A stretch of 51,675 bases of DNA from Cyclobacteriaceae bacterium SS2 (GTDB lineage: Bacteria; Bacteroidota; Bacteroidia; Cytophagales; Cyclobacteriaceae), in the NCBI GenBank assembly GCA_019192515.1, contig JAHCMM010000179.1, positions 2,503 through 54,177 on the forward strand, in the 5' to 3' direction. How positions within the stretch are numbered: the first letter of the stretch is position 1; each line of letters begins with the position of its first letter. This document shows, one piece after another, positions 14,881 through 36,871 of this stretch. The notes under the pieces are model-generated. The model had not been told where the DNA came from. It made no database searches and was given only the letters and a program-made list of their open reading frames with translations. The position numbers and the translations under genes were made by a program.

Positions 14881-16317
14881 ATGAAAAACAACAGAAGAGA
14901 TTTTTTAAGGCGAGCTAGCGTAGCAGGAACGGCTTTGATGGCAGGAGTGGGACAATCTCAAGCAAATTGCCCACAGTTTTCACGTGTGTCGGGCCAAAGG
15001 TTCAATATGAATGGCTATGCAGCACCAAAGCTGGATACAGTGAGAATTGGGATCATTGGTGTGGGCAGTCGTGGATCAGGTACCCTTCGTCGGCTAGCTG
15101 GTATCGAAGGGGTAGACATCAAAGCCATCTGTGACATTGCGCCTGAGAGAGTCAACGAATCCATTAAATCTATTAAAAAAGAGTTTCCTCAGTACGACCC
15201 GCAGGGTTATACACGTAAGGATGATTGGAAAAGAGTGTGCGAACGCGAAGACATAGACTTGATATATACGGCCACTCCCTGGGGCCTTCATACACCTATT
15301 GTAGTCTATGCTATGGAAAATGACAAGCACGCATTTACAGAGCTTCCTGTTGGTATTACAATTGATGACTGCTGGCAGGTAGTTGAGACCTCTGAGCGGA
15401 CAAAAAAACATTGCTACATGGAAGGAAGTGATTGTTCTGATGGGATATCTGCGGTGGTATTGAATCTGGCGAGAAATGGTTTTTTTGGAGAGGTTATCCA
15501 TGGAGAAGGAGCCTACATTCATGACAGAGTATCTGATACACAAACAAGATGGGTGCGAGACAAACAAAATAATGATTGGTTTGGATACAGGCCCTGGAGA
15601 TTGAAGGAAAATGTAAACCGAAATGGCAATCTCTATCCAATCCATGGTTTAGGACCCGTAGCTCAAATAATGGGCATCAACTCTGGAGACTCAATGGACT
15701 ACCTCGTTTCAGTTTCTGGTGACGATTTCACCATGAAGCACAAAATGGCTGAGCTTGCTGAAATGGATGAATATTACAAACCTTATGTGGGTCTTGATTT
15801 TAGAGGCAATATGAATACAACCATCATCCGGACCAAACTGGGCAAGACCATCATGTTGCAGCATGATATCAGCTCACCAAGACCTAATGTTCGATTCAAT
15901 ATGATCAGTGGGACTAAGGGCATGTTTTGTCAATACCCTTATCCGGCAATTGCCATGGGTCATGATTGGATGAATGCTGAAGAGTTTGATTCATTGGTAA
16001 AAGCCAACAAGCCCGAGATCACTAAAAAATTTAAAGATAGGGTTCAAACGGCAGAAAAGGTAAGCAAGGGAAGGTCCTATGAAAGGGTAACAGCAAGTGA
16101 CTGGCGTTTGATTGATTGCTTAAGAAATGGACTTCCATTGGATAAGAGTGTATACGATGCTGCTTTATGGAGTTCTATTACACCGTTGAGTGAATGGTCT
16201 GTTGATCGAGAGGGAGCATCTGTGAAAGTTCCAGACTTTACCGATAATTCATGGAAGACCAATAAGCCAGGTATGGATCTGTCTATTAATGAAGGCGGAA
16301 CTACGGGACTTTTGTAA
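14881..16317 (+). CDS. GH109-like Gfo/Idh/MocA protein, exported
   Basis: A 478-residue NAD-dependent enzyme with an N-terminal Tat-type signal (RRDFLRRASVAG). The Rossmann motif VRIGIIGVGSRGSGTLRRL follows. The usual Gfo EKP is replaced by TELPVGITIDDCW, as in GH109 alpha-N-acetylgalactosaminidases (EVPAA-like). Other GH109 hallmarks are FGEVIHGEGAYIHD and YPIHGLGPVAQIMGINSGDS. GH109 enzymes cleave glycosides through transient oxidation by bound NAD. The ATG at 14881 was chosen over a GTG at 14866 because it directly precedes the signal. The segment MEGSDCSDGISA deviates from the GH109 ENCCY motif, so specificity may differ. It is first in a three-gene run. Confidence 0.9.
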   Translation: MKNNRRDFLRRASVAGTALMAGVGQSQANCPQFSRVSGQRFNMNGYAAPKLDTVRIGIIGVGSRGSGTLRRLAGIEGVDIKAICDIAPERVNESIKSIKKEFPQYDPQGYTRKDDWKRVCEREDIDLIYTATPWGLHTPIVVYAMENDKHAFTELPVGITIDDCWQVVETSERTKKHCYMEGSDCSDGISAVVLNLARNGFFGEVIHGEGAYIHDRVSDTQTRWVRDKQNNDWFGYRPWRLKENVNRNGNLYPIHGLGPVAQIMGINSGDSMDYLVSVSGDDFTMKHKMAELAEMDEYYKPYVGLDFRGNMNTTIIRTKLGKTIMLQHDISSPRPNVRFNMISGTKGMFCQYPYPAIAMGHDWMNAEEFDSLVKANKPEITKKFKDRVQTAEKVSKGRSYERVTASDWRLIDCLRNGLPLDKSVYDAALWSSITPLSEWSVDREGASVKVPDFTDNSWKTNKPGMDLSINEGGTTGLL

Positions 16318-16345
16318 CAAGAAACAGAAGACGAAGTAATCTTAA

Positions 16346-18547
16346 ATGATCAAAGATTTGCGAGGGGTTAGCTACATAATTTATTCAATCATTATTCTCT
16401 TTAGTGCTTCATGTTCTTCAGGGGAGAACCCTTCTAGTCAAAAAAATACCATTGACAAATCCAATTATGTGGTCAATGGGTCCCAAGTGCATAACCGCTG
16501 GAAGTACTTCAACCATCAGCCCGACAATCTTTACAATCATTTTGCAGAAAAGGCATTTGGATTTTTAGAACAAAGAGCTGAAGAGATTGCTGATATCAGT
16601 ACCCTGGATGGCTGGAAGGAAAGGCAAGCGAGTGTAAAAGAGAAGCTGCACAAGCTAGTTGGTCCATTCCCTGATAAAACACCCTTAAATGCACAAGTTC
16701 TACGCACAGTTCAAAAGGATGGATACCGAATCGAATATATCGTTTTTGAATCCGTGCCCGATTTCCATATTACATCAGCAATGTTTATCCCTGATGGACT
16801 TGAACAAAAGGCACCAACCATTTTATTTGTTAATGGTCACACCGATATAGCATTTAGAGATGAGCTCTATCAGCAAGTGATCATAAATCTCGTCAAAAAG
16901 GGATTTGTGGTCTATACATACGACCCAACAGGTCAGGGAGAACGACTCCAGTATTTTGATGAAGGTACAGGTAAGTCAAAAATAGGTGGATCGGTACAAG
17001 AACATTTTCATGTTGGAAATCAGGCCTTTATTCTGGGTGGATCATTTGCAAAGTATGTGATTTGGGATGGTATCAGAGCCATTGACTTCCTGGTGTCCAG
17101 GGAAGAGGTAGATGCCACAAGGCTGGGTGTTGCCGGTCATTCTGGTGGCGGGACCCAGACTGCATATATTTCGGCGTTTGATAACAGAGTTCAAGCTGCC
17201 GCCCCTTCCAATTATATCACGAGTCACAAAAGACTTATTCAAAGCATCGGACTTCAGGATGCAGAGCAAAATTTTTATCAGGGCATATTACATGGGATTG
17301 ACCATGGTGATTTGCTAGCCGTTCGGGCACCTAGGCCAGCATTAGTAATGGCCACCAGTAGAGATTTCTTCAGTATCCAGGGCGCTCGAGAGACTGTCCA
17401 AGAGGTTTCCCGCATTTATCAGGCAAATGATCGAAGCAGTGATTTTGGTTTTGTAGAGGATAACGACAATCATACTTATACAAGAAAAAATAGAGAAGCC
17501 CTCTATGCGTTTTTTCAAAAACACTTAGACAACCCCGGGGATGCTTCGGATATGGAAGTGGAGTTTCTCACAGGGACTGATCTTCAGGTGACAAAGACCG
17601 GGCAAATATCTACAGATTATGATGGTAAAAACGTGTTTGATCTGATTGCCGAAGAGACAGCCTATCAAATCAATGTATCAAAAAAAATCAGTCATCATGA
17701 CACAAAATCTCTTCAGGCAATCGTGGAAACTTCAAAGAAAATATCAGGCTATCAGGAACCTGAATCAAACCTTGACCCAGTTTATTCAGGAGGTAGACAA
17801 CACAATGGATATACCCTGGAAAATCACTTTATCAAAGGAGTAGGAGATTATGTGATACCGTTTCTACTGTATAGGCCTGAGAAAGCAACTGGAAAAGCGA
17901 TCATATATCTTGATCCTCAAAGAAAAACAAGCAGTGTAGCTACTGGAGGTGAACTGGAAAAACTGGTAATGCAGGGCAATATGGTTCTTGTACCGGACAT
18001 GATAGGATATGGAGAAATGGGATTGAATAACAAACTGACAAATACTTTGTGGTATTTGACCATGTCTGTGGGAGAAAGTCTCACTGGAACCTGGACTAGT
18101 GATCTTACCAGACTGACATTATTTTTAAAAGAACATGAACAGATCACTGAAATAACGGGAATAGCCCATAAGGAGTTGTCACCTGTGCTTTTACATGCTG
18201 CAGCCTACGATTCTTCTATCAGTACGGTGATTCTTTCGGAACCATATATTTCTTATCGTTCAATAGTAGCCAGCGAATACTACAATCATGATTTTTATTT
18301 GAGCGCAGTGCCGGGGGCAATTAAGCATTATGACTTACCAGATTTAGCTGCTTCTCTAGCCCCTAGAAAGCTGATGATTATTGGTCCTACAGAGGGTGCT
18401 GGCGGCTACCTGAGTAGTGAAACCACGAATAGTGAATTAGCCGTGGTACAAAATCACTACAAGAAGTCAGATGCCCTGGAAAACCTCAGGATTGTTTCTG
18501 GTCAACAACCAGATGGTCATCGTCTAATTCAGGAATGGGTCAGATAA
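16346..18547 (+). CDS. Tandem alpha/beta-hydrolase lipoprotein, acetylxylan-esterase-like
   Basis: A 733-residue lipoprotein (lipid-acceptor Cys23 in FSASCSS) with two alpha/beta-hydrolase units. The first resembles acetylxylan esterase/cephalosporin deacetylase: YDPTGQGERLQYFDEG, then the nucleophile elbow GVAGHSGGGTQTAY with Ser266, and a candidate catalytic His in EDNDNHTYTRKN. The second unit (from about residue 480) keeps the fold (YLDPQRKTSS, VPDMIGYGEMGL), but the matching elbow reads GIAHKE, with Lys609 in place of Ser. It is therefore probably non-catalytic. The gene lies 28 bp after the GH109-like gene and likely removes acetyl groups from the same glycan. Confidence 0.88.
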   Translation: MIKDLRGVSYIIYSIIILFSASCSSGENPSSQKNTIDKSNYVVNGSQVHNRWKYFNHQPDNLYNHFAEKAFGFLEQRAEEIADISTLDGWKERQASVKEKLHKLVGPFPDKTPLNAQVLRTVQKDGYRIEYIVFESVPDFHITSAMFIPDGLEQKAPTILFVNGHTDIAFRDELYQQVIINLVKKGFVVYTYDPTGQGERLQYFDEGTGKSKIGGSVQEHFHVGNQAFILGGSFAKYVIWDGIRAIDFLVSREEVDATRLGVAGHSGGGTQTAYISAFDNRVQAAAPSNYITSHKRLIQSIGLQDAEQNFYQGILHGIDHGDLLAVRAPRPALVMATSRDFFSIQGARETVQEVSRIYQANDRSSDFGFVEDNDNHTYTRKNREALYAFFQKHLDNPGDASDMEVEFLTGTDLQVTKTGQISTDYDGKNVFDLIAEETAYQINVSKKISHHDTKSLQAIVETSKKISGYQEPESNLDPVYSGGRQHNGYTLENHFIKGVGDYVIPFLLYRPEKATGKAIIYLDPQRKTSSVATGGELEKLVMQGNMVLVPDMIGYGEMGLNNKLTNTLWYLTMSVGESLTGTWTSDLTRLTLFLKEHEQITEITGIAHKELSPVLLHAAAYDSSISTVILSEPYISYRSIVASEYYNHDFYLSAVPGAIKHYDLPDLAASLAPRKLMIIGPTEGAGGYLSSETTNSELAVVQNHYKKSDALENLRIVSGQQPDGHRLIQEWVR

Positions 18548-18564
18548 TACAAATACGATTTAGC

Positions 18565-19710
18565 ATGAGAGTATCTTTACGTTGGTTGCTTTTATTGGTT
18601 TGGTTTTATTCAAATTCACAAGCAACATCAGGTCCAGGGATCAGGTCTTCAGAAGCATGGAGAGAAGCAAAATATGGGAAGTGGGGGGGACCGGGTGTCT
18701 CTTCAAAACCAGGACCAATGGATTCAATATTATTGAGCGAGTATGCTCCGCAAAACTCTCTGGTAATTGAAGAGACAACAATACAAAAGGCAAAATATCC
18801 TGTAATTGACGTACATGCACATGTTCTGGCAAGAACTCCGGATGAGGTGGATGAATGGGTAAGAACGATGGATGAGGTGGGTATTAAAAAAAGCATTGTG
18901 CTGACCCATACAATTGGTGAGGAATTTGGTATATTGGCTAAACTATACCTCGAACCTTACCCTGATAGATTTATACTCTTTTGTGGAATAAGTTATGATG
19001 GACTTGATGAACCAGGTTATTCACAAAGGATCGTGCAGGAACTGATTGCATGCTATGAAATGGGTGCGCGAGGTGTAGGTGAAATTACAGATAAGGGTGC
19101 AGGAATCAATAGAACTATGGATAACCCGGTTCACCCTAATGACCCAAGGTTTTTTGATTTCTGGGAACAATGTGGGAAACTTGGTATTCCCGTAAATTTT
19201 CATATTGCTGATCACCCTTCAGCCTGGCAACCCCTCGATATTTACCAGGAAAGGACCCCAGATTATCAGCATTTTAACCTGCATGGAAAAGATATTCTTC
19301 CTTATGATGAATTGATTGGTGTATTTGAAGCAATACTGGAAGCTCATCCACGGACCAATTTTATCGCATGTCACATGGCTAATCTCGGAAATGACCTGAC
19401 TCGTCTAGGAGGCGTCATGGAGCGTTATCCTAATCTATATTTGGACATATCTGCAAGAGACTATGAAATAGGGAGAACTCCGAGAGCTGCATTTGCTTTC
19501 ATTGAAAAGTATCAAAAAAGGATCATGTATGGATCTGACATGGGACGTGAACCAAAAATGTACCGGGCCTGGTGGCAGTTATTAGAAACCAATGATGAAT
19601 TTATTACTGGGAGAGTGTGGTGGCCATATTATGGATTAGGACTTTCTCCTAAAGTTTTAAAAAACATCTATCAGAAGACAGCCAGTAAGGTTTTTGATCA
19701 ATGGGATTGA
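18565..19710 (+). CDS. Secreted amidohydrolase (ACMSD/amidohydrolase-2 type)
   Basis: About 381 residues. The ATG at 18565 gives a signal peptide (MRVSLRWLLLLVWFYSNSQA); an upstream ATG at 18535 would overlap the previous gene. The metal-binding HxH is in PVIDVHAHVLARTPDE, further likely ligands are His in VNFHIADHPSAW and FIACHMANLG, and the Asp is in MYGSDMGRE. This is the PF04909 TIM-barrel pattern, whose members hydrolyse or decarboxylate many small molecules. It follows the esterase gene closely and is the third gene of the run. Substrate unknown; deacylation or lactone opening is possible. Confidence 0.87.
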   Translation: MRVSLRWLLLLVWFYSNSQATSGPGIRSSEAWREAKYGKWGGPGVSSKPGPMDSILLSEYAPQNSLVIEETTIQKAKYPVIDVHAHVLARTPDEVDEWVRTMDEVGIKKSIVLTHTIGEEFGILAKLYLEPYPDRFILFCGISYDGLDEPGYSQRIVQELIACYEMGARGVGEITDKGAGINRTMDNPVHPNDPRFFDFWEQCGKLGIPVNFHIADHPSAWQPLDIYQERTPDYQHFNLHGKDILPYDELIGVFEAILEAHPRTNFIACHMANLGNDLTRLGGVMERYPNLYLDISARDYEIGRTPRAAFAFIEKYQKRIMYGSDMGREPKMYRAWWQLLETNDEFITGRVWWPYYGLGLSPKVLKNIYQKTASKVFDQWD

Positions 19711-19940
19711 TCCTTTTTCCTTTACAGCCGATAATTGTTGAGTTGCCTACCATTGTATTTTTCTCATAATATTAATCTAATATTAAAGTGGCTGTTCTTT
19801 TTCATTCCTTCTCTTAAAATGTGATTTAATGTATCATATTTCTAATGATTCCTACTATTTATAGAATCAGTGAATACATAATTTTATTGATAGATCAATT
19901 GAGGATTATGCTACAATTAAATTTTTGATAAGGAGTAGCA
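19711..19940. other. Intergenic region with paired TAATATTA repeats
   Basis: 230 bp with no gene. It holds two copies of the self-complementary octamer TAATATTA (19767-19774 and 19778-19785) 3 bp apart, which could fold or bind a regulator. No exact TAnnTTTG box is seen. A strong AAGGAG (19930-19935) precedes the next ATG. Confidence 0.4.
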
Positions 19941-20486
19941 ATGTGTTGCATTTACTGCAAGGAAAACAATTGTCTGATTTTTATTGAAATGAAAAATATT
20001 GATATGGATGGATCTGTTGCACGATCATTTTCTCTTTTCCTTTTAAGAATATTCATAGGTTGGCACTTACTATTTGAAGGCCTCATCAAAGTTATGGACC
20101 CATCATGGACAGCCCATGGGTTTTTAAAAGGTTCAAAATGGATTTTTTCAGACTTTTTCTTGATGATAGCCAATAATTCTGCCCTTTTGGGGATTGTCGA
20201 TCTACTTAATCAATGGGGTTTGGTATTGATTGGCCTTGCATTATTCATAGGTGTATTTACTCGCATTGCTGCCATTTCAGGGGTGGTTTTGCTGATGCTC
20301 TATTATGTGTGTATGCCGCCATTCATGGGTCTTGATTATGCGAGTACAACAGAAGGTAGCTACATGATCGTCAATAAAAATTTGATTGAAGTAGCAGCTC
20401 TTTTAATACTGTCACTTTTCTCTGCAGGAGAACACTTCGGACTCGACCTTTTGCGAAGAAGGAGGACCGGAAAGCTGGCATTCTAG
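19941..20486 (+). CDS. DoxX-family membrane protein
   Basis: About 181 residues with four membrane segments. The DoxX signature is at FLLRIFIGWHLLFEGLIKVM, and further helices are WGLVLIGLALFIGVFTRIAA, GVVLLMLYYVCMPPF and LIEVAALLILSLFSAG. DoxX proteins are linked to quinone or thiol redox chemistry, but most have no proven reaction. The ATG at 19941 has AAGGAG five bases ahead, so I kept it; it gives an odd Cys-rich start (MCCIYCKENNC). The ATG at 19989 is an alternative giving a more usual N-terminus. It is 31 bp upstream of an exported Gfo/Idh/MocA gene, suggesting a redox pair. Confidence 0.85.
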   Translation: MCCIYCKENNCLIFIEMKNIDMDGSVARSFSLFLLRIFIGWHLLFEGLIKVMDPSWTAHGFLKGSKWIFSDFFLMIANNSALLGIVDLLNQWGLVLIGLALFIGVFTRIAAISGVVLLMLYYVCMPPFMGLDYASTTEGSYMIVNKNLIEVAALLILSLFSAGEHFGLDLLRRRRTGKLAF

Positions 20487-20517
20487 GGTTGGGTTTTTTA
20501 GTAAGATAACAATTTAG

Positions 20518-22059
20518 ATGATGATGAAATTTAAAGATTTTGACCGAAGAACACTCCTTAAAGGAATGGCATCATTCCCAGTACTGGGTCTGTTTGGTTA
20601 TGAATTTTTTAGAAGAGAGTTGTCCGATCAAAAGGAACCCGTAGATATTCTAAAAGAATTGGGAATAGACCAAAAAATGGATTTTTCTGGTGATCTCAAA
20701 AAAAACTCCGCACAACTGATTCGATTAGGCATTATCGGAGCAGGTACCCGGGGAAAGACGTTGCTTTTCCGTACGGGGTTTGCACCCAAGGAAAGAATCA
20801 AAGGCATGAATGCTGAGCAAATGGAAGCCTGGATGGATTATGCAGACCTCAATGTAGTGGTGACCGGAGTATGCGATGTTTTTGATGACAGGGCCGAAAT
20901 GGCTTTGGATGCTGCCGGCCATAGTGTTAAGGCAGTAAGTGGTGAAAAGAACTTACCAAAAGCAAAAAGGTATCGAGACTACCGGGACCTGCTTGCTAGT
21001 GATGATATAGATGCTGTGATCATCGCCACACCAGATCATCACCATGTCCAAATGACCATTGATGCTATCAATGCAGGGAAGCATGTGTATTGTGAAAAAG
21101 CACCCACCAGAACTGAAGCCGAAGCCTATCATCTATATGAAGCCATTAAAGACACAAAACTTGTCTATCAACTTGGGCACCAGATTAGGCACAATCCTAT
21201 CTATCCCTATGCTGCTAAATTGGTCAATCAGGGCGTATTGGGTGCGGTGAATTTGGTTGAAGTCACCACCAACAGGAATACCTCAAGCGGGGCCTGGGTT
21301 CGCCACGTGAACAGGGACGGCAGTCCCAAGCCAGGTGACTTAAAGAGCATCGATTGGAACAGGTGGTTAGGTGATCGTCCCGAAGTACCATTTAGCACTG
21401 ACAGGTATTATAATTGGACAAAGTACTGGGATTATGCCAATGGGCTTTTAGGGCAGTTGTTCTCTCATGAATATGATGCAGTCAATGGTATACTCGACCT
21501 GGGAATACCCCATTCATGTATGTGCTCCGGAGGGATCTATTACTTCGATGACGGTAGGGAAATTCCTGATCTTATGCATGCGGTATTTGAATACCCTGAT
21601 AAAGGAATGAGCCTTGTTTACAGTGCTACACTGGCCAATAGCCGCAACCGTGGAAGAGTGATTATGGGCCGTGATGCCAGCATGGAGATTGGCGGCAGCA
21701 TAGAAATAACCGCAGATGGAAATTCAGAGCGATACAAAGATGTGCTCGATAATAAACTGATTGATTCAAGTAAACCCTTTGTTACGGCGGGGGGCCAAAG
21801 AGACGTTGATGGAGTATCCTCAGCAACAGAAAAATACTATATAGACAGGGGATTGACAGAGGTGAAAGTGAATGGAAAATCTCAGGATGTCACACACCTT
21901 CATCTAAGAGAATGGCTGGATGTGATACGCAACGGAGGTAAGGTGAGTTGTGGACTCAATAATGCTTTCGACGAAGCGATTACTATTCAAATGGCCAAAA
22001 AATCCTACACCGAGGGCCGTAGAGTGACGTGGGATCCTGTAAGTCGGAAAATAGTTTAA
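20518..22059 (+). CDS. Exported Gfo/Idh/MocA-family oxidoreductase
   Basis: A 513-residue protein with a Tat-like signal (DFDRRTLLKGMASFPVLGLF). The Rossmann motif is LGIIGAGTRGKTLLF, preceded by about 65 extra residues, and an insert follows before the second strand (VVVTGVCDVFDDRAEMA). The family EKP motif reads YCEKAPTRTEAEAYH, with Ala in place of Pro. Substrate-side residues DHHHVQMTI and SHEYDAVNGILDLGIPHSC are well formed. It likely oxidises or reduces a sugar unit in the periplasm using tightly bound NAD(P). It is 28 bp upstream of the ECF sigma gene. Confidence 0.9.
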   Translation: MMMKFKDFDRRTLLKGMASFPVLGLFGYEFFRRELSDQKEPVDILKELGIDQKMDFSGDLKKNSAQLIRLGIIGAGTRGKTLLFRTGFAPKERIKGMNAEQMEAWMDYADLNVVVTGVCDVFDDRAEMALDAAGHSVKAVSGEKNLPKAKRYRDYRDLLASDDIDAVIIATPDHHHVQMTIDAINAGKHVYCEKAPTRTEAEAYHLYEAIKDTKLVYQLGHQIRHNPIYPYAAKLVNQGVLGAVNLVEVTTNRNTSSGAWVRHVNRDGSPKPGDLKSIDWNRWLGDRPEVPFSTDRYYNWTKYWDYANGLLGQLFSHEYDAVNGILDLGIPHSCMCSGGIYYFDDGREIPDLMHAVFEYPDKGMSLVYSATLANSRNRGRVIMGRDASMEIGGSIEITADGNSERYKDVLDNKLIDSSKPFVTAGGQRDVDGVSSATEKYYIDRGLTEVKVNGKSQDVTHLHLREWLDVIRNGGKVSCGLNNAFDEAITIQMAKKSYTEGRRVTWDPVSRKIV

Positions 22060-22087
22060 GGAATGGTTTTATCTAAACAGATCTAAT

Positions 22088-22639
22088 TTGAGAAACTTTG
22101 ACGCAGATTTAAAATTGCTGAAAGCAATAAGAAAGGGAGATGAGAAGGCATTTGAAAAAATCTTTGAGAGATACTCTACACAACTATTCAATGTTGTACA
22201 AAAATTCACAACTTCTCGTACGGATGCAGAAGATGTGGTACAAGAGGTATTTTCAAAGGTCTGGAAGCATAGGATAAGAATAAACCCCGAGTTACCATTC
22301 ACCCCATATATCATCAAGATTGCTAAAAATATGGTTATTAATATCGCTAAAAAGCGGATATATGAGACCACCTATTTGAGCTACAAATACCACGTCCACT
22401 CTAAATTCAACTACATCACAGAGAATCAGGTATTGTTTAGAGAGCTTCAAAGCATCCTGGAGGAAAAAATTTCGATGCTTCCAGACAAAAGGCAGGAAGT
22501 CTACAGATTGAGCCGACAGGAAGGTTTGACAGCCAACGAAATCGCTGAAAAGTTAGGCATTTCGGTAAGGACTGTAGAAAATCATATTAATCAGGCACTT
22601 AAGGAAATAAGGCATCATCTGGCTCAAAAGTCAAAGTAA
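22088..22639 (+). CDS. ECF RNA polymerase sigma factor
   Basis: A 183-residue sigma-70 factor of the ECF class common beside SusC/D loci. Region 2 is at AFEKIFERYSTQLFNVVQKF and RTDAEDVVQEVFSKVWKHRI. Region 4 is at LPDKRQEVYRLSRQEGLTAN, then EKLGISVRTVENHINQALKE. The only plausible start is TTG: the frame is open only to 22055 upstream and holds no ATG. With FecR and the STN domain of SusC it would form a trans-envelope relay that switches on susCD when the glycan is sensed. Confidence 0.95.
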   Translation: MRNFDADLKLLKAIRKGDEKAFEKIFERYSTQLFNVVQKFTTSRTDAEDVVQEVFSKVWKHRIRINPELPFTPYIIKIAKNMVINIAKKRIYETTYLSYKYHVHSKFNYITENQVLFRELQSILEEKISMLPDKRQEVYRLSRQEGLTANEIAEKLGISVRTVENHINQALKEIRHHLAQKSK

Positions 22640-22689
22640 TGAATGCCTACCCTGTACTTAGAGAAACTATTTTTTGTAGAAGGGTTGAG

Positions 22690-22724: not shown

Positions 22725-22759
22725 GACAAAAACCTAAATAAAAGATAACCCTAAGAGCT

Positions 22760-23767: not shown

Positions 23768-23815
23768 AAAATAAACGAAAGTGCCTATGAAATATTAGAT
23801 GATAAAATAAAAAAA

Positions 23816-23850: not shown

Positions 23851-23852
23851 CT

Positions 23853-23873: not shown

Positions 23874-23892
23874 AATGTAAACATTCAAAGTT

Positions 23893-27462: not shown

Positions 27463-27490
27463 TTGCTTGTTAAAATTAGACTTTAAGACG

Positions 27491-29209
27491 ATGAAAAAAC
27501 TATATATATTATTGTTATTAACAGTGCCATTCATACAGGCATGTGATGAAGATTTTCTAGATCGGCCTCCATTGGACCAAATTGGAAATGATAGTTATTG
27601 GAGATCCGCAGTTGACCTTCAAAACTATACTGCAACTTTTTATCAAAATTTACCAGGTTTCCCGGGAAGTGCTTACAATACCTATAATCAAGCAACTGAC
27701 CAGTTCACCTATCAGAATGCAAATAACTTGCTGAATGGGACCACTGTTATTTCAACAGGTTCATGGCAATCTGATTTTTCAGCTGTCAGGGGGATCAATA
27801 TCTTTTTTGACAATTATGGGAAATGTGAGGATGATTTTGAGACCTGGAAGCATTACTTAGGTGAAGCACAATTCTTCAAAGCCTGGATTTACTTCAACCT
27901 GGTCCAGAAATATGGTGATGTGCCCTGGTATTCTAATTCACTCACTACAGAAGATGAGGATGAGTTAATGAGGCCAAGAGACCCGCGAACACTGGTAGTT
28001 GATTCTATCTTATATCTATTAGATGAAGCTACTGAGAATGTGGCACTGAGAGATGCGGCTCCATGGAACAATAACTCTATCAATAAAGAAGCTGTTCTAG
28101 CTTTTAAATCAAGGGTTGGTCTTTATGAGGGTACCTGGCAAAAATACCATGCAGGAACAGCTTTTGGTACTTCCGGAGCAGATCCTGACAAATACTTTCA
28201 GGCAAGTGTAGATGCAGCAGAGGAGTTGATCAACGGTGGAGAATACAATGCTGGGATTTATACTACCGGAAATCCTGATACAGATTACTTTTCATTATTT
28301 GGTATGGGAAATATGGGACCGATCAATGAAATACTGTTATATCGTGCATATAGTATTGCAGACAGGATTGGTCACAATCAAAATTACTATACCACAACAT
28401 CTCCCAATCAACTGGGCGCTACCTGGTCTTTTGTGACATCACACCTGGCCAATGACGGTACACCCTTTGATTACACGACACTCGCTCAAACTACAAAGGG
28501 TAATGATTTTTTGACGGCCATAGCTGCCAATTGTGATCCTAGGTTGAGGCAAAATATCTGGATTCCCGGAGATGTCATGAATAACGGAGAGGCATTGGTG
28601 TTTGATTATCCTCCTATAGATGAAGGCCCCATAAATGTGAGCCCAACGGGCTTTCAGGTTAAAAAGGGTGTAAATCTTGACCTAACCACAGGATATGCGA
28701 ATGCGAATGATGCTGGCTTTATCCTTTTTAGTTATTCGGAGGTGCTCCTTAATTATGCAGAAGCAAAGTATGAATTAGATGGAACCATTGCTTATGCCCA
28801 GTTGAACGAGTTGCGTGCCAGAGTTGGGATGCCTGATTTTGTTATAAATCAACAGACTGATGATCCAAATCTGGTAGATTATGGATACGCTATTTCTGAT
28901 GCGCTTTACGAAATTCGCAGAGAGAGAAGTGTTGAGTTGGTCTTTAACCGTTTCCGTGAGTCAGACTGGAAACGTTGGGCAGCGCATAGTTTGTTTGATG
29001 GCAAAAGACCTTTGGGCTATCCCTTTAAAGCTGATGAATTTCCTGGTTTCACGCCATCTCTCGATGAGAATGGATTGATAGATATTCTGCAAACCGAAAT
29101 TCCGAGTGGATATACATTTAGAGCTGACAGGGATTACCTGAGTAGCGTACCTGAAACAGAGCTGACGCTTAATCCAAATCTAACCCAGAATCCAGGGTGG
29201 ACTGAATAA
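27491..29209 (+). CDS. SusD/RagB-family surface glycan-binding lipoprotein
   Basis: A 572-residue lipoprotein. The ATG at 27491 gives a lipobox signal (MKKLYILLLLTVPFIQAC); a TTG at 27467 only adds eight residues ahead of it. The N-terminal family motif DEDFLDRPPLDQIGNDSYWR and the conserved C-terminal ALYEIRRERSVELVFNRFRE are present, with TPR-like helices between. It binds oligosaccharides at the cell surface and lids the SusC barrel. A large stem-loop follows the gene. Confidence 0.96.
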   Translation: MKKLYILLLLTVPFIQACDEDFLDRPPLDQIGNDSYWRSAVDLQNYTATFYQNLPGFPGSAYNTYNQATDQFTYQNANNLLNGTTVISTGSWQSDFSAVRGINIFFDNYGKCEDDFETWKHYLGEAQFFKAWIYFNLVQKYGDVPWYSNSLTTEDEDELMRPRDPRTLVVDSILYLLDEATENVALRDAAPWNNNSINKEAVLAFKSRVGLYEGTWQKYHAGTAFGTSGADPDKYFQASVDAAEELINGGEYNAGIYTTGNPDTDYFSLFGMGNMGPINEILLYRAYSIADRIGHNQNYYTTTSPNQLGATWSFVTSHLANDGTPFDYTTLAQTTKGNDFLTAIAANCDPRLRQNIWIPGDVMNNGEALVFDYPPIDEGPINVSPTGFQVKKGVNLDLTTGYANANDAGFILFSYSEVLLNYAEAKYELDGTIAYAQLNELRARVGMPDFVINQQTDDPNLVDYGYAISDALYEIRRERSVELVFNRFRESDWKRWAAHSLFDGKRPLGYPFKADEFPGFTPSLDENGLIDILQTEIPSGYTFRADRDYLSSVPETELTLNPNLTQNPGWTE

Positions 29210-29224
29210 CCATGTTCTTTAAAT

Positions 29225-29270
29225 ATTGAGACAAGGGAAGTTGCCATAAAGCAACCTCTTTTGTCTCAAT
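29225..29270 (+). terminator. Stem-loop after susD
   Basis: A 10-bp outer stem (ATTGAGACAA 29225-29234 with TTGTCTCAAT 29261-29270) continues inward through GGGAAGTTGC and GCAACCTCTT with one mismatch and two G-T pairs. This gives about 19 pairs in 46 nt. There is no clean T-tract, so it may stabilise the susCD message or partly terminate before the enzyme genes. Confidence 0.6.
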
Positions 29271-29350
29271 AATTGTCAAAATTTTGTTAGTCGATTCACA
29301 AACTATTGAGGGTTTGAAGGGGAAATCCTTTCCTTAGTAATTATTACCAA

Positions 29351-31657
29351 ATGTCTGTAAAAACACTAGTAATCTGTCTTGTCATTTCCATTCTTTTCTC
29401 AGGCATGGTTGAAGCGCAGTCAGATATGCAATCTTCCGGGAATAGACCTATTATAAAAGACAGCTACCACTATAGTACTGTATTCGCTGGAAACAGGGAC
29501 TATAGGATTTTTTTGCCACCCGATTATGAAAAAAATTCTAATAAGCGGTACCCGGTTATCTATTTTTTTCACGGTTGGGCTCAGCGTTATTTTGGCTCCT
29601 GGGCGGATGGATACTCAGATTATGACATGGGTGACGAAAATAATGGAGATAATATTGAAAAATTTGTAAAGGAAAATGATGTGATCATTATAAAGGTGGA
29701 TGGTCGTAATCAGTTTTCTATTGACGAACTGAATATCACACCTTGGAATGTCAGTTCCGTAATGACATTTCGCCAATTCCCATCATATTTTAAGGAATTG
29801 GTTAATTATATAGATACACACTATCGCACTATTTCTGATAGGGAGCATCGAGCTGTTTCTGGTCTTTCGATGGGTGGGTTTATGACGTTTTGGCTGGCTG
29901 CCAAATTTCCGGATATGATATCCGCTGCAGGCAGCTTTTGTGGGTCATCTGAATTCATGGCTGGACCTGTAGAATTCCCTGTCAGGTATGCACACGCCGA
30001 AATGTATGATAATCTAAAAGCTGTTCATGTGCGACTCAACAATGGCACACGAGACCGGCTGCGTTTTTATCACAGGGATCAAAACCGCTACATGGGTAAT
30101 GTATTGCCACAGTATCAGTATCATGTTTATGATGCTTCTCACATCACTTGCGGTATGGGGGATATGTTCAGCTATATTCTGGATGCTTTTGAGAATCCCT
30201 TACCAATACCTGATCAATGGGATTACATTGACATTTATCCATTTTTTGATGTTTGGGGGTATAAAGTAGAAACGAGTAGGAATCAGGCAGGCTTTACCAT
30301 TCTGGAAGATGTGAATAAAGAGGGATTTAAGTTCTCTGTTCGGAATTTTCTGCCTGATGGAGAACTGATGCCAAATATATCTGCAAAAGTGGTCAGTGCT
30401 CCTATATATCAACCCTATCAACAGTATTACATCACAGATATTGACATTATCAATGATGTAAAAAAGAATTATGTGACCAATGCGAATGAACATGGAGAGC
30501 TTACCATAGAAACAAATGGAAGCTTACATCAAATTGGAATAGCTGAAAGTACCGAAACACCAATTCTTTGTATGTCAGGTTTTGCTATTGACAATATGCC
30601 GTGGGCAGTGACAGGAAAGGTGCTGTCATTGTCTATCGGTATTCTGAATAAGGGATTCAGTAGTGCAAAAGATATCTCAGTCGAGTTATCACCACTTAGT
30701 GAGGGTCTTGAAATTCACGTGGATAAGGGAAAGCTTAAGCATTTGACTTCCCTCTCCAAATCGGAGTTAAAATCAAAATTTAAGGTTACTAACACTAAAG
30801 AAGGTGTAGATATCGCCAAACTACAGGTGAAAATCAATGACGGTGAAGGGAATTCCTGGCAGGAAGAGTTTGAGATCCGGTTTAAAGATCCGGTAGAGGA
30901 GATCCCTGATTTCAAGATTGCTGATGGGGTAAAAATGACCGTAGTGAAAGCTGCTGTAGATTCTGTAACAGAGGTTGTAGGATCGGGCAATGGTGATGGC
31001 ATCCCTAACCCCGGAGAGAATATAGTCATACTAGTGGAAGAAGAAGGTAAGTACATCCGTACGCATGCACAGACTCTAAACTCAAATATCAACCCAAATC
31101 AGACTCATATCAGACCTTATGATCCCTGGCAGGAGTATGATCACATTGGTGGTGCAGCAAAGTATTCCTCACCCTTAATATCCTCTAATACTCCCCAGGG
31201 TGAAAAGATCCATTTTTATACTGAATACTGGATTCCTGGTGATACCAGTGGAGAACATATTACCAAAAAAGGGAGTGTAAGCATCGTGGTAAAGGGTAGT
31301 GACAAGACGGCTCCACAAGTGGAATGGTTGCAGGTATTGACAAATGATCGAATTGAGGCCAGGGTTTATGATGGTTCCAGTGTAGAAAAGGTGGAAGTTA
31401 CCCTGGTCCCAAATAAGGAAAAGTCAACCATGAGGTATATCAAATGGGAAAGTAGACCTGAAACATTCACTGTTGAACTTGTTGACACTGGAAAAAATGG
31501 AGACAAGGTTGCAGGAGATGGAGTTTATAGCATTCGCCTGGAAGACAGTCCTTCTTATTTCTATGATCTTGATATCACAACCGCAGATAAATATGATAAC
31601 CAAATGACCTTAAGATGGCCAGGGACCATTTACCTAAAAAATACTCAAAGACCATAA
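29351..31657 (+). CDS. Multidomain secreted esterase (esterase D/feruloyl-esterase-like)
   Basis: 768 residues with a signal peptide (CLVISILFSGMVEAQ). The N-terminal 290 residues are an alpha/beta hydrolase: FHGW oxyanion strand near 72-76, nucleophile Ser173 in SGLSMGGFM, and likely His264 in YDASHITCGMG. Domains after 300 are Ig-like; one carries GNGDGIPNPGENI, common in Bacteroidota secreted proteins, and the last ends in AGDGVYSIRL. It probably removes acyl or aryl groups from the glycan. It is the first of six genes spaced by a few to about 50 bp, the enzyme arm of the locus. Confidence 0.88.
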   Translation: MSVKTLVICLVISILFSGMVEAQSDMQSSGNRPIIKDSYHYSTVFAGNRDYRIFLPPDYEKNSNKRYPVIYFFHGWAQRYFGSWADGYSDYDMGDENNGDNIEKFVKENDVIIIKVDGRNQFSIDELNITPWNVSSVMTFRQFPSYFKELVNYIDTHYRTISDREHRAVSGLSMGGFMTFWLAAKFPDMISAAGSFCGSSEFMAGPVEFPVRYAHAEMYDNLKAVHVRLNNGTRDRLRFYHRDQNRYMGNVLPQYQYHVYDASHITCGMGDMFSYILDAFENPLPIPDQWDYIDIYPFFDVWGYKVETSRNQAGFTILEDVNKEGFKFSVRNFLPDGELMPNISAKVVSAPIYQPYQQYYITDIDIINDVKKNYVTNANEHGELTIETNGSLHQIGIAESTETPILCMSGFAIDNMPWAVTGKVLSLSIGILNKGFSSAKDISVELSPLSEGLEIHVDKGKLKHLTSLSKSELKSKFKVTNTKEGVDIAKLQVKINDGEGNSWQEEFEIRFKDPVEEIPDFKIADGVKMTVVKAAVDSVTEVVGSGNGDGIPNPGENIVILVEEEGKYIRTHAQTLNSNINPNQTHIRPYDPWQEYDHIGGAAKYSSPLISSNTPQGEKIHFYTEYWIPGDTSGEHITKKGSVSIVVKGSDKTAPQVEWLQVLTNDRIEARVYDGSSVEKVEVTLVPNKEKSTMRYIKWESRPETFTVELVDTGKNGDKVAGDGVYSIRLEDSPSYFYDLDITTADKYDNQMTLRWPGTIYLKNTQRP

Positions 31658-31696
31658 GCATTTCATAAAGCATTTTAACGATTAACCAGAATCAAA

Positions 31697-33925
31697 ATGA
31701 ATCTATCTTATAAAGCTGATAATTATTTTAAGCTTGTTTTTATAATGCTGATAACATCAGGATTGTTCAGCTGTCAAAAGACAGAACAATCTTTGATTGA
31801 TAGCAATAATTTACTGCCAGCGCCACAAAAAGCAACCCTGGTGGGTGGTGAATCATTAGACCCTAATGACATTGAGATCATCTATTTGTTTCCAGGACTG
31901 GGCGATAATCCACAATTTGCAGCCACGCTACTAAAGGATGAACTTAAGAGTTTGTTTGGCAAGGACTTATCAGTGAAAGAAATTAATTCTATGGATGAAA
32001 TTTCAGGATCTGCTATTGTTTTAGGAATTCCTTCGGCAAGTGAATCTTTTGAATTGTTTAGTGAAAATCTCCCTGCTCCGCAAAAGGATCAACAGGATGC
32101 ATATGTGATAGATATTACAGAAGAACTAGTCGTCATTTCAGGTGCAGCCGATCAAGGACTTTTCTATGGTGTCCAAACACTCATTCAGCTATTTGAAGAA
32201 GCAAAATGGAATGATGCAGCTGTTTCTGGGATGCTAATCGAAGATTGGCCGGATATGAAATTAAGATGGGTTCAATACAACTATTTTTTTCATCTGGATC
32301 GCTATGAATACATCAAAGAATCTATCAAAAAGCTGGCGAAATACAAGATCAATGGAGTTGTCTTCGAATTTGAAGATAAGTTTCAATATCAATCACACCC
32401 CTTTGTTGTTGCCCCAAATAATCTAGCACCAGATCAGGTAAAAGAACTAACCCAGTTTGCTCACCAGTATCATGTAGATATTGTGCCGCTGGTGCAAGGA
32501 TTCGGACATGCAGGATATCTCCTCAAGCATGAGGAACTTAAGCATCTAAGAGAGGATCCGGAGATATATCAGTCTTTCTGCCCGTTGAATGAGGAGACGT
32601 ATGAATTTATATTCGATCTGTTTGGTGAGACAATTGATGCTACTCCAGGAGTTGATTATTTCCACATCGGTGGGGACGAGGTACGCATTATGGGTAAATG
32701 CTCATTGTGTAAAGAGAAGATGGAAGAGATTGGAGATCTTGGATTATATCTGATCTGGCTGGACAAGGTTAGAGAGTTTATGGAGGAGAGAGGCCGCAAA
32801 CTTGTTTTCTGGGATGACATGCCATTGAAGCAAGCAGGAGTTTATAAGACCACATATAATAAAGCTGATTCTACATTTGACAGGGTTTGGGAAGATGGAG
32901 AGAAAAAACTTAACGGAATTGTCAATAAGTTTCCTCAAGACGGGATCTTCATGAGATGGAACTACGGCTTAGCAAGGGATGAGGGTAACTATAAAGCCCT
33001 TGAATGGTACCGGGACAATAACTTCAATACCATGATTGCTACAGCCGTAATTGGTGACTGGCCCCTCATCCCCAAATATGAATCCATGCCAGAGAATATT
33101 AAAAGCTTTGTAACGCTAGGTGCAGAAAAGCAGGCTCTTGGTGAACTGTGTACGGCTTGGGGTGATGATTCTGGAAATCATTTTGAGATCTACTGGTTTG
33201 GATTTTTAGAGTCATCGGAGTTTGCCTGGAGTAGTAAAAGCCCTGAAACAGTAGATCAATATTGGCGAAAATATGTTTACCGGTTTTTTGGTCCAGGTCA
33301 TCAGGAGTTAATACCGGCATTCAACAACCTGGCTGCAAGAGTCCCTTTCTGGGATACTTCGCTCATGAAGCGAGGAAATAAACGCCGGGTTGGATATCAA
33401 CACATCACGCTTCCAAACCTGGATGGTTTACCAGAAGAAGGCAGCTGGGGTAAACGCTTTCAGCCACTACTTGATACGGCTCGTTTAGAAAAAGCACGAT
33501 GTGCTGAAGGAACCGCGACCATTAAAAAGCATATAAGTTCAGCCAGGGGCAATGCATATAATCTGGAGATTTTTGCATCCATGGGGGACTTCATGGAAGC
33601 CTATACCGACCTGGTACTCTCCATAGAACATATTGCAGCCTATTGTGATAAGCAAATCGCCGCCTCCAAAGCCGGTAAACAACTGGATGATTCCGAATAT
33701 ACCAAAATGATTCAGAAGGTAGAGGCTGCATGGAATGGCTATAAAACCACTTATAAGGAGTTGGAGGAACTTTGGGAAGAATCCAGGTACCCAAAAGGAG
33801 GTGAAGATTATATGATGAATGATCAGACCATCTATATGGCCGGAAGAACCAGGGATCTTTCATATCTGATCCTGGCAGAGCAGGAGTTGGATCTGGTTGG
33901 ACATGTGAAGGGCCTGGCCAGATAA
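31697..33925 (+). CDS. GH20 beta-N-acetylhexosaminidase lipoprotein
   Basis: 742 residues. The signal ends in a lipobox (SGLFSC). The N-terminal GH20b domain (LLPAPQKATLVGGESL to GLFYGVQTLIQLF) precedes the TIM barrel. The catalytic pair is Asp327-Glu328 in FHIGGDEVRIM, and GH20 enzymes use the substrate's N-acetyl group as nucleophile. A Cys cluster follows (GKCSLCKEKM). The C-terminal 200 residues are helical and unassigned. It would release GlcNAc or GalNAc, which is the strongest clue that the target glycan contains amino sugars. Confidence 0.94.
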   Translation: MNLSYKADNYFKLVFIMLITSGLFSCQKTEQSLIDSNNLLPAPQKATLVGGESLDPNDIEIIYLFPGLGDNPQFAATLLKDELKSLFGKDLSVKEINSMDEISGSAIVLGIPSASESFELFSENLPAPQKDQQDAYVIDITEELVVISGAADQGLFYGVQTLIQLFEEAKWNDAAVSGMLIEDWPDMKLRWVQYNYFFHLDRYEYIKESIKKLAKYKINGVVFEFEDKFQYQSHPFVVAPNNLAPDQVKELTQFAHQYHVDIVPLVQGFGHAGYLLKHEELKHLREDPEIYQSFCPLNEETYEFIFDLFGETIDATPGVDYFHIGGDEVRIMGKCSLCKEKMEEIGDLGLYLIWLDKVREFMEERGRKLVFWDDMPLKQAGVYKTTYNKADSTFDRVWEDGEKKLNGIVNKFPQDGIFMRWNYGLARDEGNYKALEWYRDNNFNTMIATAVIGDWPLIPKYESMPENIKSFVTLGAEKQALGELCTAWGDDSGNHFEIYWFGFLESSEFAWSSKSPETVDQYWRKYVYRFFGPGHQELIPAFNNLAARVPFWDTSLMKRGNKRRVGYQHITLPNLDGLPEEGSWGKRFQPLLDTARLEKARCAEGTATIKKHISSARGNAYNLEIFASMGDFMEAYTDLVLSIEHIAAYCDKQIAASKAGKQLDDSEYTKMIQKVEAAWNGYKTTYKELEELWEESRYPKGGEDYMMNDQTIYMAGRTRDLSYLILAEQELDLVGHVKGLAR

Positions 33926-33977
33926 AATGAGTAACGATAGATGAGATAATCAAGACACAAATAAATAACTACATGAT

Positions 33978-35441
33978 ATGAAAAGATTTAATAGAACTGG
34001 ATTTCAACTTGCTATAGCTTTTATAGTCGTTGTAATACTCAGTTGGTCATTGCAAGCCGTAGCCGAAAATACTGAAGACAATGTGTTCATGGCAGGAGCC
34101 GCCACAGCCAACATCACTCCACCCTTAGGTATGGGGTTGGTTGGTGGCTGGGGTACTCCTCCGGCTACTCACATCCACGATGAGCTACACGCAAGGTGTT
34201 TGGTACTGGATGATGGAAGCACAAAGCTGGTTTTCGTTATCGTAGATAATGTGGGGCTGCGAGATGATTTGCTGGATGAAGGCAGAAGAAGAATCCAGGA
34301 AAAAACAGGTATACCCATGAAGAATGTCATGATTTCATCCACACATACACACTCCGCAGTAAGTGCCGCTGGAGCCGAACGTTATGATTACAGTAGTGGT
34401 GGAGAATTCGACGAATATCAGGAGTTCTTGCTGAGCCGGTTTGTGGATGGGACTCAGATTGCGATAAATAATCTTGAGCCGGCAAAGATTGGTTGGGGTG
34501 ATATTGACGTTCCCGAGCATCTGTTTGTTCGTAGATGGAAAATGAAGCCTGGTACGCCATTGCCTAATCCTTATGGCGGACAGGATAAAGTGAAAATGAA
34601 TCCGGGACATAGTCCTGATTTGTTGGAACAAGCAGGTGTTCCGGATCCCGAAGTATCCTTTATCTCTGTGCAATCTACCAGTGGAAGACCCATTGCCTTA
34701 ATGGCAAATTATGGATTGCATTATGTTGGCTATGTTTCCGAAGGACATGTTTCTGCAGACTATTTTGCCTTGTTTGCTGATAATATTCAGAAGTTGCTCG
34801 GAGCTGACAGACAGGATCCTCCATTTGTAGGGATCATGACAAATGGTACTTCAGGAGATGTAAATAATAATAACTACAGCAAAGCAAGTAATCGGAAGCC
34901 TGATTATGTACAGATGCGATATGTGGCCGATGATGTGGCTAGAAAAGTTTACAGTGTGTGTAATAACATTGAATACAAAGACTGGGTACCACTTAAAGCT
35001 GCTGCAGAAAAGCTAACCCTTAAAGTAAGAAAAGCTCCTAAAAAACTGGTGAAAAGATCTGAAGGAGTACTTGCCAGACCAGAAACAGTGGAGCCAATTC
35101 ATCGACATGAGGTGACTTATGCAAAGCGAATTCTTCTTATGGATAAGTGGCCTGATGAAATTGACATCACCTTGCAGACATTTAGAATAGGAGACCTTGG
35201 AGTCGCTGCTATTCCTTTCGAAGTATTTGCTGAAATAGGGCTTGAAATAAAAGAAAGGACTCCTTTCCAAAAATCATTTACCATCAGTCTGGCAAACGGA
35301 GGCTTTGGATATTTGCCGACTCCTCCTCAACATGAGCTGGGTGGCTACGAAACATGGTATGGGACCAATAAGGTAGAGATCGATGCTTCTGTGAAAATCA
35401 TCGATAAACTAATGAATCTGTTCGGGGAGATCCAGGAATAA
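33978..35441 (+). CDS. Neutral-ceramidase-like secreted hydrolase
   Basis: 487 residues with an N-terminal signal segment (LAIAFIVVVILSWSLQAVAE). The first half matches the neutral/alkaline ceramidase N-terminal domain: GAATANITPPLGMGLVGGWG, a His pair in MISSTHTHSAVSAAG, and a later His in NYGLHYVGYVSEGHVSADYF that would complete a zinc site. TNGTSGDVNNNN is another family-like loop. The C-terminal ceramidase domain is shortened. Members beside carbohydrate genes in Bacteroidota have no proven ceramide activity; amide or ester cleavage on a glycolipid or glycan is plausible. Confidence 0.85.
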   Translation: MKRFNRTGFQLAIAFIVVVILSWSLQAVAENTEDNVFMAGAATANITPPLGMGLVGGWGTPPATHIHDELHARCLVLDDGSTKLVFVIVDNVGLRDDLLDEGRRRIQEKTGIPMKNVMISSTHTHSAVSAAGAERYDYSSGGEFDEYQEFLLSRFVDGTQIAINNLEPAKIGWGDIDVPEHLFVRRWKMKPGTPLPNPYGGQDKVKMNPGHSPDLLEQAGVPDPEVSFISVQSTSGRPIALMANYGLHYVGYVSEGHVSADYFALFADNIQKLLGADRQDPPFVGIMTNGTSGDVNNNNYSKASNRKPDYVQMRYVADDVARKVYSVCNNIEYKDWVPLKAAAEKLTLKVRKAPKKLVKRSEGVLARPETVEPIHRHEVTYAKRILLMDKWPDEIDITLQTFRIGDLGVAAIPFEVFAEIGLEIKERTPFQKSFTISLANGGFGYLPTPPQHELGGYETWYGTNKVEIDASVKIIDKLMNLFGEIQE

Positions 35442-35467
35442 GGCAGTGCTTTTCATCTAACAATAAC

Positions 35468-36871
35468 ATGCAAAACAGGCGTAAATTTCTTTCAACAATA
35501 TCGTTGATCGCAGCAGGATCTCTTGTGTCCGATCATCTAAAGGCTGGGATTCTTGCAAAGGGTAAGAAGCTCAAGGTAGTGTTGATCGGTACCGGTGTTA
35601 GAGGAACTTCTTTTTGGGGTAAGCGGCTGATGGATGCTTATAGTGACATCCTAACATTTGATGCGTTGGTAGATCCCAATGCTGGTCGGTTGGAGTATGC
35701 GAGGAATTATATTAGTGTTGGAAAGGATTGTGGGCTTTATCATTCGTTTGAAGCGATGATTAAGTCTCACGATCCTGATTTAATAATTGTTACCACTCCT
35801 GATTCTTCCCATCACGAATACGTCATCAAGGCACTTGAAAACGGTATTGATGTACTCACCGAGAAACCCCTAACGGTGGATGAAGCAAAATGCCAGGCCA
35901 TACTTGATGCAGAACAAAAGTATCAACGAAAAGTGTTTGTGGGGTTCAACCTAAGGTGGTCTCCTTACAACGCCAGGATCAAGCAAATGCTGAATGATAA
36001 AATCATAGGAGACATTGTTTCAGTGGATTTTTCCTGGAACTTAAATACCAGCCATGGAGCATCCTACTTTCGAAGGTGGCATGGTCAGATGGAGTACAGT
36101 GGTTCACTACTGGTTCATAAGTCTACCCACCATTTCGACCTGCTTAATTGGTGGTTGAACTCTGAACCTGAGAAAGTGTTTGCCTTTGGTGATCTGGAAT
36201 ATTATGGTCGCCGACAGGAAAAGAAGGGTGTCAACTGCAGGAATTGTAATGAAAAAGATACCTGCAAGTTCTACTGGGATATCAATACAAGTAAGTCAAG
36301 TGTTGATTTATACGTCAAAAATGAGCACCTGGATGGGTACATACGCGATAGTTGTGTGTTTAGGCCTGATATTGATATCTATGATAAAATGAATCTTAAT
36401 ATCAGGTACGCCAACAATGTATATGTCAACTATATGCTCACTACATATTCCCCCTGGGAGGGCTGGCACATTGCCTTTAATGGGACAAAGGGAAGACTGG
36501 AAGCATTTATGGATGTGCCTTATATGGACTCCAAAAACTTGTCTCAAGAAGAGCTCCATCGCATGGAAATGAATCAGCAGGGCAGTGAGGATTCAGATAC
36601 ACGCCCAATCATAACTCATAAGCTATGGGACAGCCAGGAAACATTAAGTGTACCTCATAATCGTTCCGGGCATGGTGGTGGAGACAAACTTTTGCAAGAC
36701 AATATCTTTAGAAATATTAAAGCTGAAGATACACTCCATCAAACTGCGGGAACAAGAGATGGTGCCATGTCGGTGTTAATTGGTATTGCAGCAAGAAACA
36801 GTATAGAGACAGGAGAGCCTGTATTGATCAGTTCTCTGACCGATTTAAAACCGAAAGCTCAAAGGTTTTGA
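35468..36871 (+). CDS. Exported Gfo/Idh/MocA-family oxidoreductase
   Basis: 467 residues with an N-terminal NRRKFLSTISLIAAGSLVSD export signal (Tat-like). Rossmann motif KVVLIGTGVRGTSFW and the classic LTEKPLTVDEAKC lysine motif are intact. A Cys cluster (NCRNCNEKDTC, near 258-268) is inserted in the catalytic domain and could bind a metal. HKSTHHFDLLNWWL supplies the usual active-site His. It is the third exported member of this family in the locus. It ends just before the DUF6807 gene. Confidence 0.9.
   Translation: MQNRRKFLSTISLIAAGSLVSDHLKAGILAKGKKLKVVLIGTGVRGTSFWGKRLMDAYSDILTFDALVDPNAGRLEYARNYISVGKDCGLYHSFEAMIKSHDPDLIIVTTPDSSHHEYVIKALENGIDVLTEKPLTVDEAKCQAILDAEQKYQRKVFVGFNLRWSPYNARIKQMLNDKIIGDIVSVDFSWNLNTSHGASYFRRWHGQMEYSGSLLVHKSTHHFDLLNWWLNSEPEKVFAFGDLEYYGRRQEKKGVNCRNCNEKDTCKFYWDINTSKSSVDLYVKNEHLDGYIRDSCVFRPDIDIYDKMNLNIRYANNVYVNYMLTTYSPWEGWHIAFNGTKGRLEAFMDVPYMDSKNLSQEELHRMEMNQQGSEDSDTRPIITHKLWDSQETLSVPHNRSGHGGGDKLLQDNIFRNIKAEDTLHQTAGTRDGAMSVLIGIAARNSIETGEPVLISSLTDLKPKAQRF

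Follow-up and report, generated by a model that had tools for sequence, protein, structure and literature searches.

A DoxX gene paired with an exported Gfo/Idh/MocA protein, and exchanged catalytic loops, in a SusC/SusD locus of Cyclobacteriaceae bacterium SS2

Exported Gfo/Idh/MocA proteins of the locus

A stretch of 51,675 nucleotides from Cyclobacteriaceae bacterium SS2 (contig C89, positions 2503-54177; hereafter the window), part of a genome of 5.47 Mb that is 98.9% complete, carries three genes of the Gfo/Idh/MocA family, which we call P1 (14881-16317), P2 (20518-22059) and P3 (35468-36871). Directly upstream of P2 lies a gene for a DoxX-family integral membrane protein (19941-20486), which an earlier note on this DNA had missed; these genes and the others of the window given below, up to 38607, are on the (+) strand. 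Here, we describe the pairing of DoxX with P2, which is conserved across several phyla, and the active-site loops of P1 and P3, and consider what they may mean for glycan use.

The earlier note had claimed three exported Gfo/Idh/MocA enzymes of different subtypes in one glycan locus, and this holds. All three reading frames are intact, match PF01408 (46.1, 57.1 and 77.2 bits for P1, P2 and P3, respectively) and begin with twin-arginine (Tat) motifs (NRRDFLRR, DRRTLLKG and NRRKFLST), and the genome encodes TatC, so the predicted export signals stand up to checking. The three proteins are distinct, with the marks described for them (TELP in P1, CEKA in P2, and TEKP with a CxxC-x5-C cluster in P3), and the locus includes a SusC/SusD pair. 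Export is not, as had been supposed, something unusual: twin-arginine signals are carried by 32 of the 47 PF01408 proteins of the genome, and hence export is the norm for the family in this organism. Clusters of two to three Gfo/Idh/MocA genes are also found on other contigs (three on C120). The Tat pathway moves folded proteins, so an enzyme can carry along a cofactor that it bound in the cytoplasm, which answers in principle the concern over how exported enzymes dependent on nicotinamide adenine dinucleotide (NAD) keep their cofactor. Beside the 47 Gfo/Idh/MocA genes, the genome has 23 matches to PF06439, the 3-keto-disaccharide hydrolase family; its oxidised-sugar repertoire is very large.

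The pairing of DoxX with P2

P2-type homologues were drawn from three samples, namely 19 from the same family, 8 from a phylum-wide draw and 80 loci from a scan of named hosts. The sets overlap slightly, as a locus of the same family (L192 in G001) is identical over 4545 bases to one from Aquiflexum lacus (L270), the two being one locus. DoxX is immediately adjacent to P2 in 13 of the 19 family-level homologues, with three of the six misses falling at contig ends, and in all eight further homologues of the phylum-wide draw (8/8). Together, these two samples give 21/24 evaluable loci, and two of the three exceptions are homologues without the N-terminal segment of P2. The named-host scan, whose hosts include Bacteroidota, Calditrichaeota, Neomarinimicrobiota, Aminicenantes, Gemmatimonadota and one Lysobacterales metagenome-assembled genome (MAG), comprised 60 DoxX-adjacent P2-type loci, the locus L239, six loci truncated at their upstream end or close to it, and 13 shorter homologues. 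DoxX lies directly beside the P2-type gene in 61/61 evaluable loci from several phyla, counting L239, where the reading frame of P2 is broken and DoxX stands at its true start. It is beside none of the shorter homologues (0/13), which have ordinary Tat signals and lack the P2 N-terminal segment. The two genes share a strand and are spaced by about -99 to +23 bp. Of six DoxX genes in the SS2 genome, only two stand next to a Gfo gene: the one at P2, and one on C157 that adjoins, with the gene order reversed, a distant P2-like paralogue. In searches of the open literature, no link between DoxX and MocA or polysaccharide utilisation was found.

The long N-terminal segment of P2 contains a Tat/anchor stretch (RRTLLKGMASFPVLGLFGYEFFR, 20545-20613), and the P2-type homologues share the pattern RRD.LKGLAT.PVLG...Y..KK, with a polar arm after it. 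The segment resembles a membrane anchor and would, if it is one, hold P2 uncleaved at the membrane. Among 17 homologues compared residue by residue, R10 and R11 are invariant, as are G71, G74, G76, E193 and K194; the GxGxxG motif and the EK catalytic lysine are thus present. The residue after E193-K194 varies between A, S, P and C, and therefore 'EKA' does not define a subtype and was rejected as a mark of one, although the long extension and the CEKA letters reported for P2 are both there.

P2 is best read, from its sequence and neighbourhoods, as an exported glycoside dehydrogenase, because PF06439 genes lie near 24 of 60 DoxX-P2 genes and its closest PDB relatives are 8tdf and 8tdh (profile E 7.7e-35). 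Other recurrent neighbours of DoxX-P2 are xylose-isomerase-like genes (11 and 7 loci), a second Gfo gene (9 loci) and a symporter of the major facilitator superfamily (MFS) or nucleoside type (7 loci). A point of comparison is BT2158, a periplasmic glycoside 3-dehydrogenase (PMC11300592), with BT2157, the 3-ketotrehalose hydrolase whose family is PF06439 (PMC9007349). P2 resembles this system in being an exported Gfo/Idh/MocA protein with the EK catalytic pair and in having PF06439 at homologous loci, but it reaches only 105.9 bits against the BT_2158_fam model of NCBIfam (NF058561; cut-off 750 bits), and its DoxX partner and N-terminal segment set it apart. LacABC of Caulobacter is a membrane lactose 3-dehydrogenase found with a DUF1080 hydrolase (PMC9007349). 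It is alike in pursuing membrane-linked periplasmic sugar 3-oxidation beside PF06439, but is a three-component dehydrogenase, whereas the window has a two-gene pair of Gfo/Idh/MocA protein and DoxX. The glucose-fructose oxidoreductase of Zymomonas is a Tat-exported Gfo/Idh/MocA enzyme with an N-terminal arm and a tightly held cofactor; P2 is similar to it at the family level only, and we know of no DoxX partner for it.

The DoxX protein itself scores 22.9 bits against PF07681 on its own and 23.9 bits with the neighbouring stretch (cut-off 23.6 bits), while homologues at other loci reach 27.6 and 35.5 bits. Its AlphaFold2 model has a predicted local distance difference test score (pLDDT) of 85.8, and the best structural neighbour found with Foldseek is TMEM35A/NACHO (prob 0.82, E 1.5, not significant); a sequence search of the PDB returned no relative. 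In NCBIfam, DoxD of the DoxX/DoxD family is named as a subunit of thiosulfate:quinone oxidoreductase (TQO), and in Mycobacterium tuberculosis DoxX belongs to the redox-linked MRC complex (PMC10501769). The window protein is alike as a small membrane protein scoring close to the PF07681 cut-off, and unlike in that its partner is an exported sugar dehydrogenase.

Active-site loops of P1 and P3 and the genes around them

In addition to PF01408, P1 matches Glyco_hydro_109_C (PF21252) at 129.4 bits, and its closest PDB relative is AmGH109A, an NAD-dependent N-acetylgalactosaminidase (6t2b, E 9e-71). The GH109 mechanism relies on the acid/base His404 in a GGHGG loop, together with Tyr226 and His259 (PMC10755693). 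Equivalents of the latter two are retained in P1, within conserved GAYIH and YPIHG, and P1 is like AmGH109A and EmNagA (2ixa) in fold, PF21252 domain, NGNLYP-HG histidine and AYIH tyrosine. It is unlike both in lacking the GGHGG acid/base histidine: in an alignment with AmGH109A and relatives, SYERVTASDWR takes the place of the loop, so that ..KMGGHGGMDF.. of AmGH109A corresponds to ..KVSKGRSYERVTASDWR.. of P1 (16057-16107). The GGHGG loop is kept in both other PF21252 proteins of the genome (on C315 and C336) and in 62 of 67 relatives compared, and the YERV loop occurs in 4/67. Phylogeny, by which the earlier note had wanted the proteins assigned, places these four in a single clade with 100/100 support, nested within loop-bearing relatives. 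As the substitute is itself conserved among them (YERV[TS]A[ST]DWR), a new function is favoured over decay. Having lost the acid/base, P1 is predicted to be unable to follow the published GH109 mechanism, and 'GH109-like', apt for the domain, fails as a functional label. In two of the four, G046 and G034, an amidohydrolase homologue lies directly upstream of the YERV-type P1 (L193 and L195; 56% identity); in the window, the amidohydrolase (18535-19710; PF04909) sits two genes downstream of P1. A GH109-like protein of a Bacteroidales MAG (L221, 3865-5244) shows neither loop pattern, GHGG or YERV.

P3 had been called a classic EKP form, which does not fit, since it has a GH109-type GHGG loop besides its EKP lysine (K133). 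Its SGHGGGD falls exactly on the GH109 GGHGG in a joint alignment, with GHGGGD (H402) encoded at 36668-36685 and aligned with the loop of AmGH109A; HGG is found in 30/31 relatives, 30/31 combine the GHGG loop with the EKP lysine and HK(S/A)(T/S)HHFD (H217, H221, H222 and D224 in P3), and the active-site set as a whole is kept in 30-31 of the 31. Four cysteines (C257, C260, C266 and C296; 36236-36355), invariant in 31/31, probably form a metal site, either zinc or iron-sulphur. The EKP lysine and the four-cysteine site distinguish P3 from GH109, as does the lack of a match to PF21252, on account of which we do not file it there; its profile matches are PF02894 and PF22725, plus PF01408. GH188, the family of the NAD-dependent sulfoquinovosidase ArSqgA, offers a similar redox-neutral NAD glycosidase logic, with a lysine and two histidines in the active site, an arrangement that P3 may share. 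The similarity in sequence is only distant, and P3 matches the GH188 structures 8qc2 and 8qc3 (E 7e-10 and 4e-9) no better than it does many other Gfo enzymes. P3 has the groups needed for cleavage of this redox-neutral GH109/GH188 kind, and could carry it out.

Between P1 and the amidohydrolase is an exported abhydrolase or acetyl-xylan-esterase-like protein (16346-18547; PF12715, PF05448). P2 is followed by an extracytoplasmic function (ECF) sigma factor (22088-22639), a FecR-like anti-sigma factor (22760-23767) and a glycan uptake pair of SusC-like (23893-27462) and SusD-like (27467-29209) proteins, all read from their translations. Thereafter come an exported esterase (29351-31657; PF00756), a GH20-like beta-hexosaminidase (31697-33925; PF00728 at 59.6 bits, with an HIGGDE catalytic motif at amino acid 323) and a neutral-ceramidase-like exported hydrolase (33978-35441), whose match to PF04734 (45.8 bits) covers the N-terminal part only. 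Beyond P3 are a DUF6807 protein overlapping its end (36868-37827; PF14100 at 154 bits) and a GDSL or pectin-acetylesterase-like protein (37831-38607). Further on, proteins resembling RidA, D-threonine aldolase/alanine racemase, aminomutase, 3-hydroxyacyl-CoA dehydrogenase, dipeptidase, amino-acid permease, phosphotriesterase and sulfatase were recognised by eye (39712-49074), and this block may be an operon for the catabolism of amines or amino acids.

The DUF6807 gene had been taken as a sign of the same chemistry as its Gfo/Idh/MocA neighbours, and at the family level the link is real: of 48 DUF6807 genes sampled in the family, 31 have a Gfo/Idh/MocA gene within 2.5 kb, mostly on the same strand and less than 150 bp away, against about 7% that we estimate from gene density. 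The subclade of the window's own DUF6807, however, is mostly found away from Gfo genes, the exceptions being the window and L221, and a conserved P3-DUF6807 pair was therefore rejected for it. DUF6807 had no PDB relative by sequence search and no match in a scan of viral contigs. Its AlphaFold2 model, built from three sequences only, is too weak to use (pLDDT 50.8), and its Foldseek matches to LacZ (E >= 2e-3, TM about 0.3) offer no more than a hint of a sugar-binding fold of the all-beta type. DUF6807 also occurs in open frames of about 1220-1320 amino acids in many relatives (G000 C215:11499-12212 and its relatives), and a second group has about 660-684.

Members of this grouping recur in distant genomes. 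The order P3-DoxX-P2 is found in a Calditrichaeota locus (L222), and in Petrimonas (L282) the order P1-like-DoxX-P2-P1-like is part of a SusC/SusD locus. L221 combines a GH109-like gene, DoxX-P2 and a DUF6807 of the window's subclade; G046 has amidohydrolase-P1, DUF6807, P1', P2 and DoxX together, and G034 has P1, P1' and P3. Because genes resembling P1, P3 or DUF6807 turn up repeatedly next to P2-DoxX, chance is not a satisfactory account of the grouping; this recurrence argues for a shared substrate.

A candidate electron outlet and its rivals

These observations are real and partly understood. Whether this glycan-utilisation locus is served by an exported three-enzyme oxidoreductase set, with P2 and DoxX as its redox core, seems to us evenly poised. 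P2 would leave the cytoplasm folded via Tat, presumably with NAD(P) bound, and its N-terminal segment would keep it close to the inner membrane. There, it would oxidise a glycoside hydroxyl, probably at C3, and we infer that the neighbouring DoxX then reoxidises the reduced cofactor, with the quinone pool as the most likely destination of the electrons. P3 could act redox-neutrally on the glycoside, whether oxidised or intact, by cleaving or reducing it; P1 probably works on that sugar too, by an altered reaction, and DUF6807 and the other exported hydrolases would finish degradation. The use of oxidised intermediates, as the earlier note suggested, is plausible because GH109/GH188 and BT2157/BT2158 work through oxidised sugars (PMC10755693, PMC11300592, PMC9007349) and PF06439 is frequent at other DoxX-P2 loci, but the contig of the window has no 3-keto hydrolase (all 23 are elsewhere in the genome).

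Quinone coupling of DoxX and P2, suggested by analogy with DoxX relatives, falls somewhat short of an even chance in our judgement, and the fuller proposal is a shade more tentative: that DoxX and an N-terminally tethered Gfo/Idh/MocA protein form a two-gene quinone-linked glycoside dehydrogenase, with nicotinamide bound outside the cytoplasm and reoxidised at the membrane, working in this locus with a loop-swapped GH109-derived enzyme. Several results weigh against the reading as a whole, including the missing 3-keto hydrolase. The family analogy behind a quinone role is weak, as DoxX scores 24.2 bits against the TQO_large_DoxD model of NCBIfam (NF041179; cut-off 300 bits), and its structural model matches vitamin K-dependent carboxylase in Foldseek only at E > 1. 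Counting AxA motifs failed to separate anchored from cleavable signals (29/59 vs 10/14) and was dropped as a test of an uncleaved signal. P1, P2 and P3 were seen in one locus only in the window, and elsewhere two at a time or with paralogues.

With no significant PDB match for the DoxX model and a TQO score so far below the cut-off, we retain docking or assembly as the main rival. DoxX would hold or fold P2 without electron transfer, and P2 would run a closed redox cycle like DgpA, its bound NADH being reoxidised by another keto-sugar. DgpA-type enzymes do regain NAD+ by reducing 3-oxo-glucose, and in the open literature covered, cofactor regeneration in NAD(P)-type enzymes is described only via reduction of other metabolites (PMC11239390). 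A second Gfo gene is present in many DoxX-P2 loci, and the best structural neighbour of DoxX is itself an assembly factor, but that match is not significant, and Gfo enzymes of the same genome with ordinary Tat signals are encoded with no DoxX neighbour; we consider this account rather unlikely. DoxX might instead be a small permease passing a product such as a keto-sugar across the inner membrane. The tight same-strand pairing would suit such a role, as would the symporters downstream of P2 in seven loci, transport being a part of such operons; yet a representative MFS-symporter locus (L271) retains DoxX too, and DoxX proteins in the open literature covered are redox-linked (PMC10501769), which makes a permease improbable. 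A chance cluster, in which each Gfo gene has a separate function, might be expected in a genome of 5.47 Mb that has 47 such genes and further clusters of them elsewhere, and G032 of the same genus has a P3 homologue and no close P2 or P1. The adjacency of P1, P2, P3 and DUF6807 nevertheless recurs in several distant genomes, far above the roughly 0.7% per pair that we estimate for two genes falling within 20 kb of each other in a genome of 5.5 Mb, and we give chance only a slim prospect.

Keto-sugar chemistry is already known, and what is new here is the conserved DoxX partner together with the swapped catalytic loops. Given the YERV swap in P1 and the GHGG loop in P3, labels such as GH109 or 'classic' dehydrogenase drawn from overall similarity would mislead inventories of carbohydrate-active enzymes. 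This lineage is rich in exported sugar oxidoreductases that depend on NAD. For net oxidation to proceed outside the cytoplasm, the electrons need somewhere to go, and a DoxX partner that is near-invariant across several phyla is a concrete and deletable candidate for that outlet. If quinone-linked oxidation by the pair is true, the two-gene DoxX-Gfo/Idh/MocA system would serve glycans as a point of entry into respiration.

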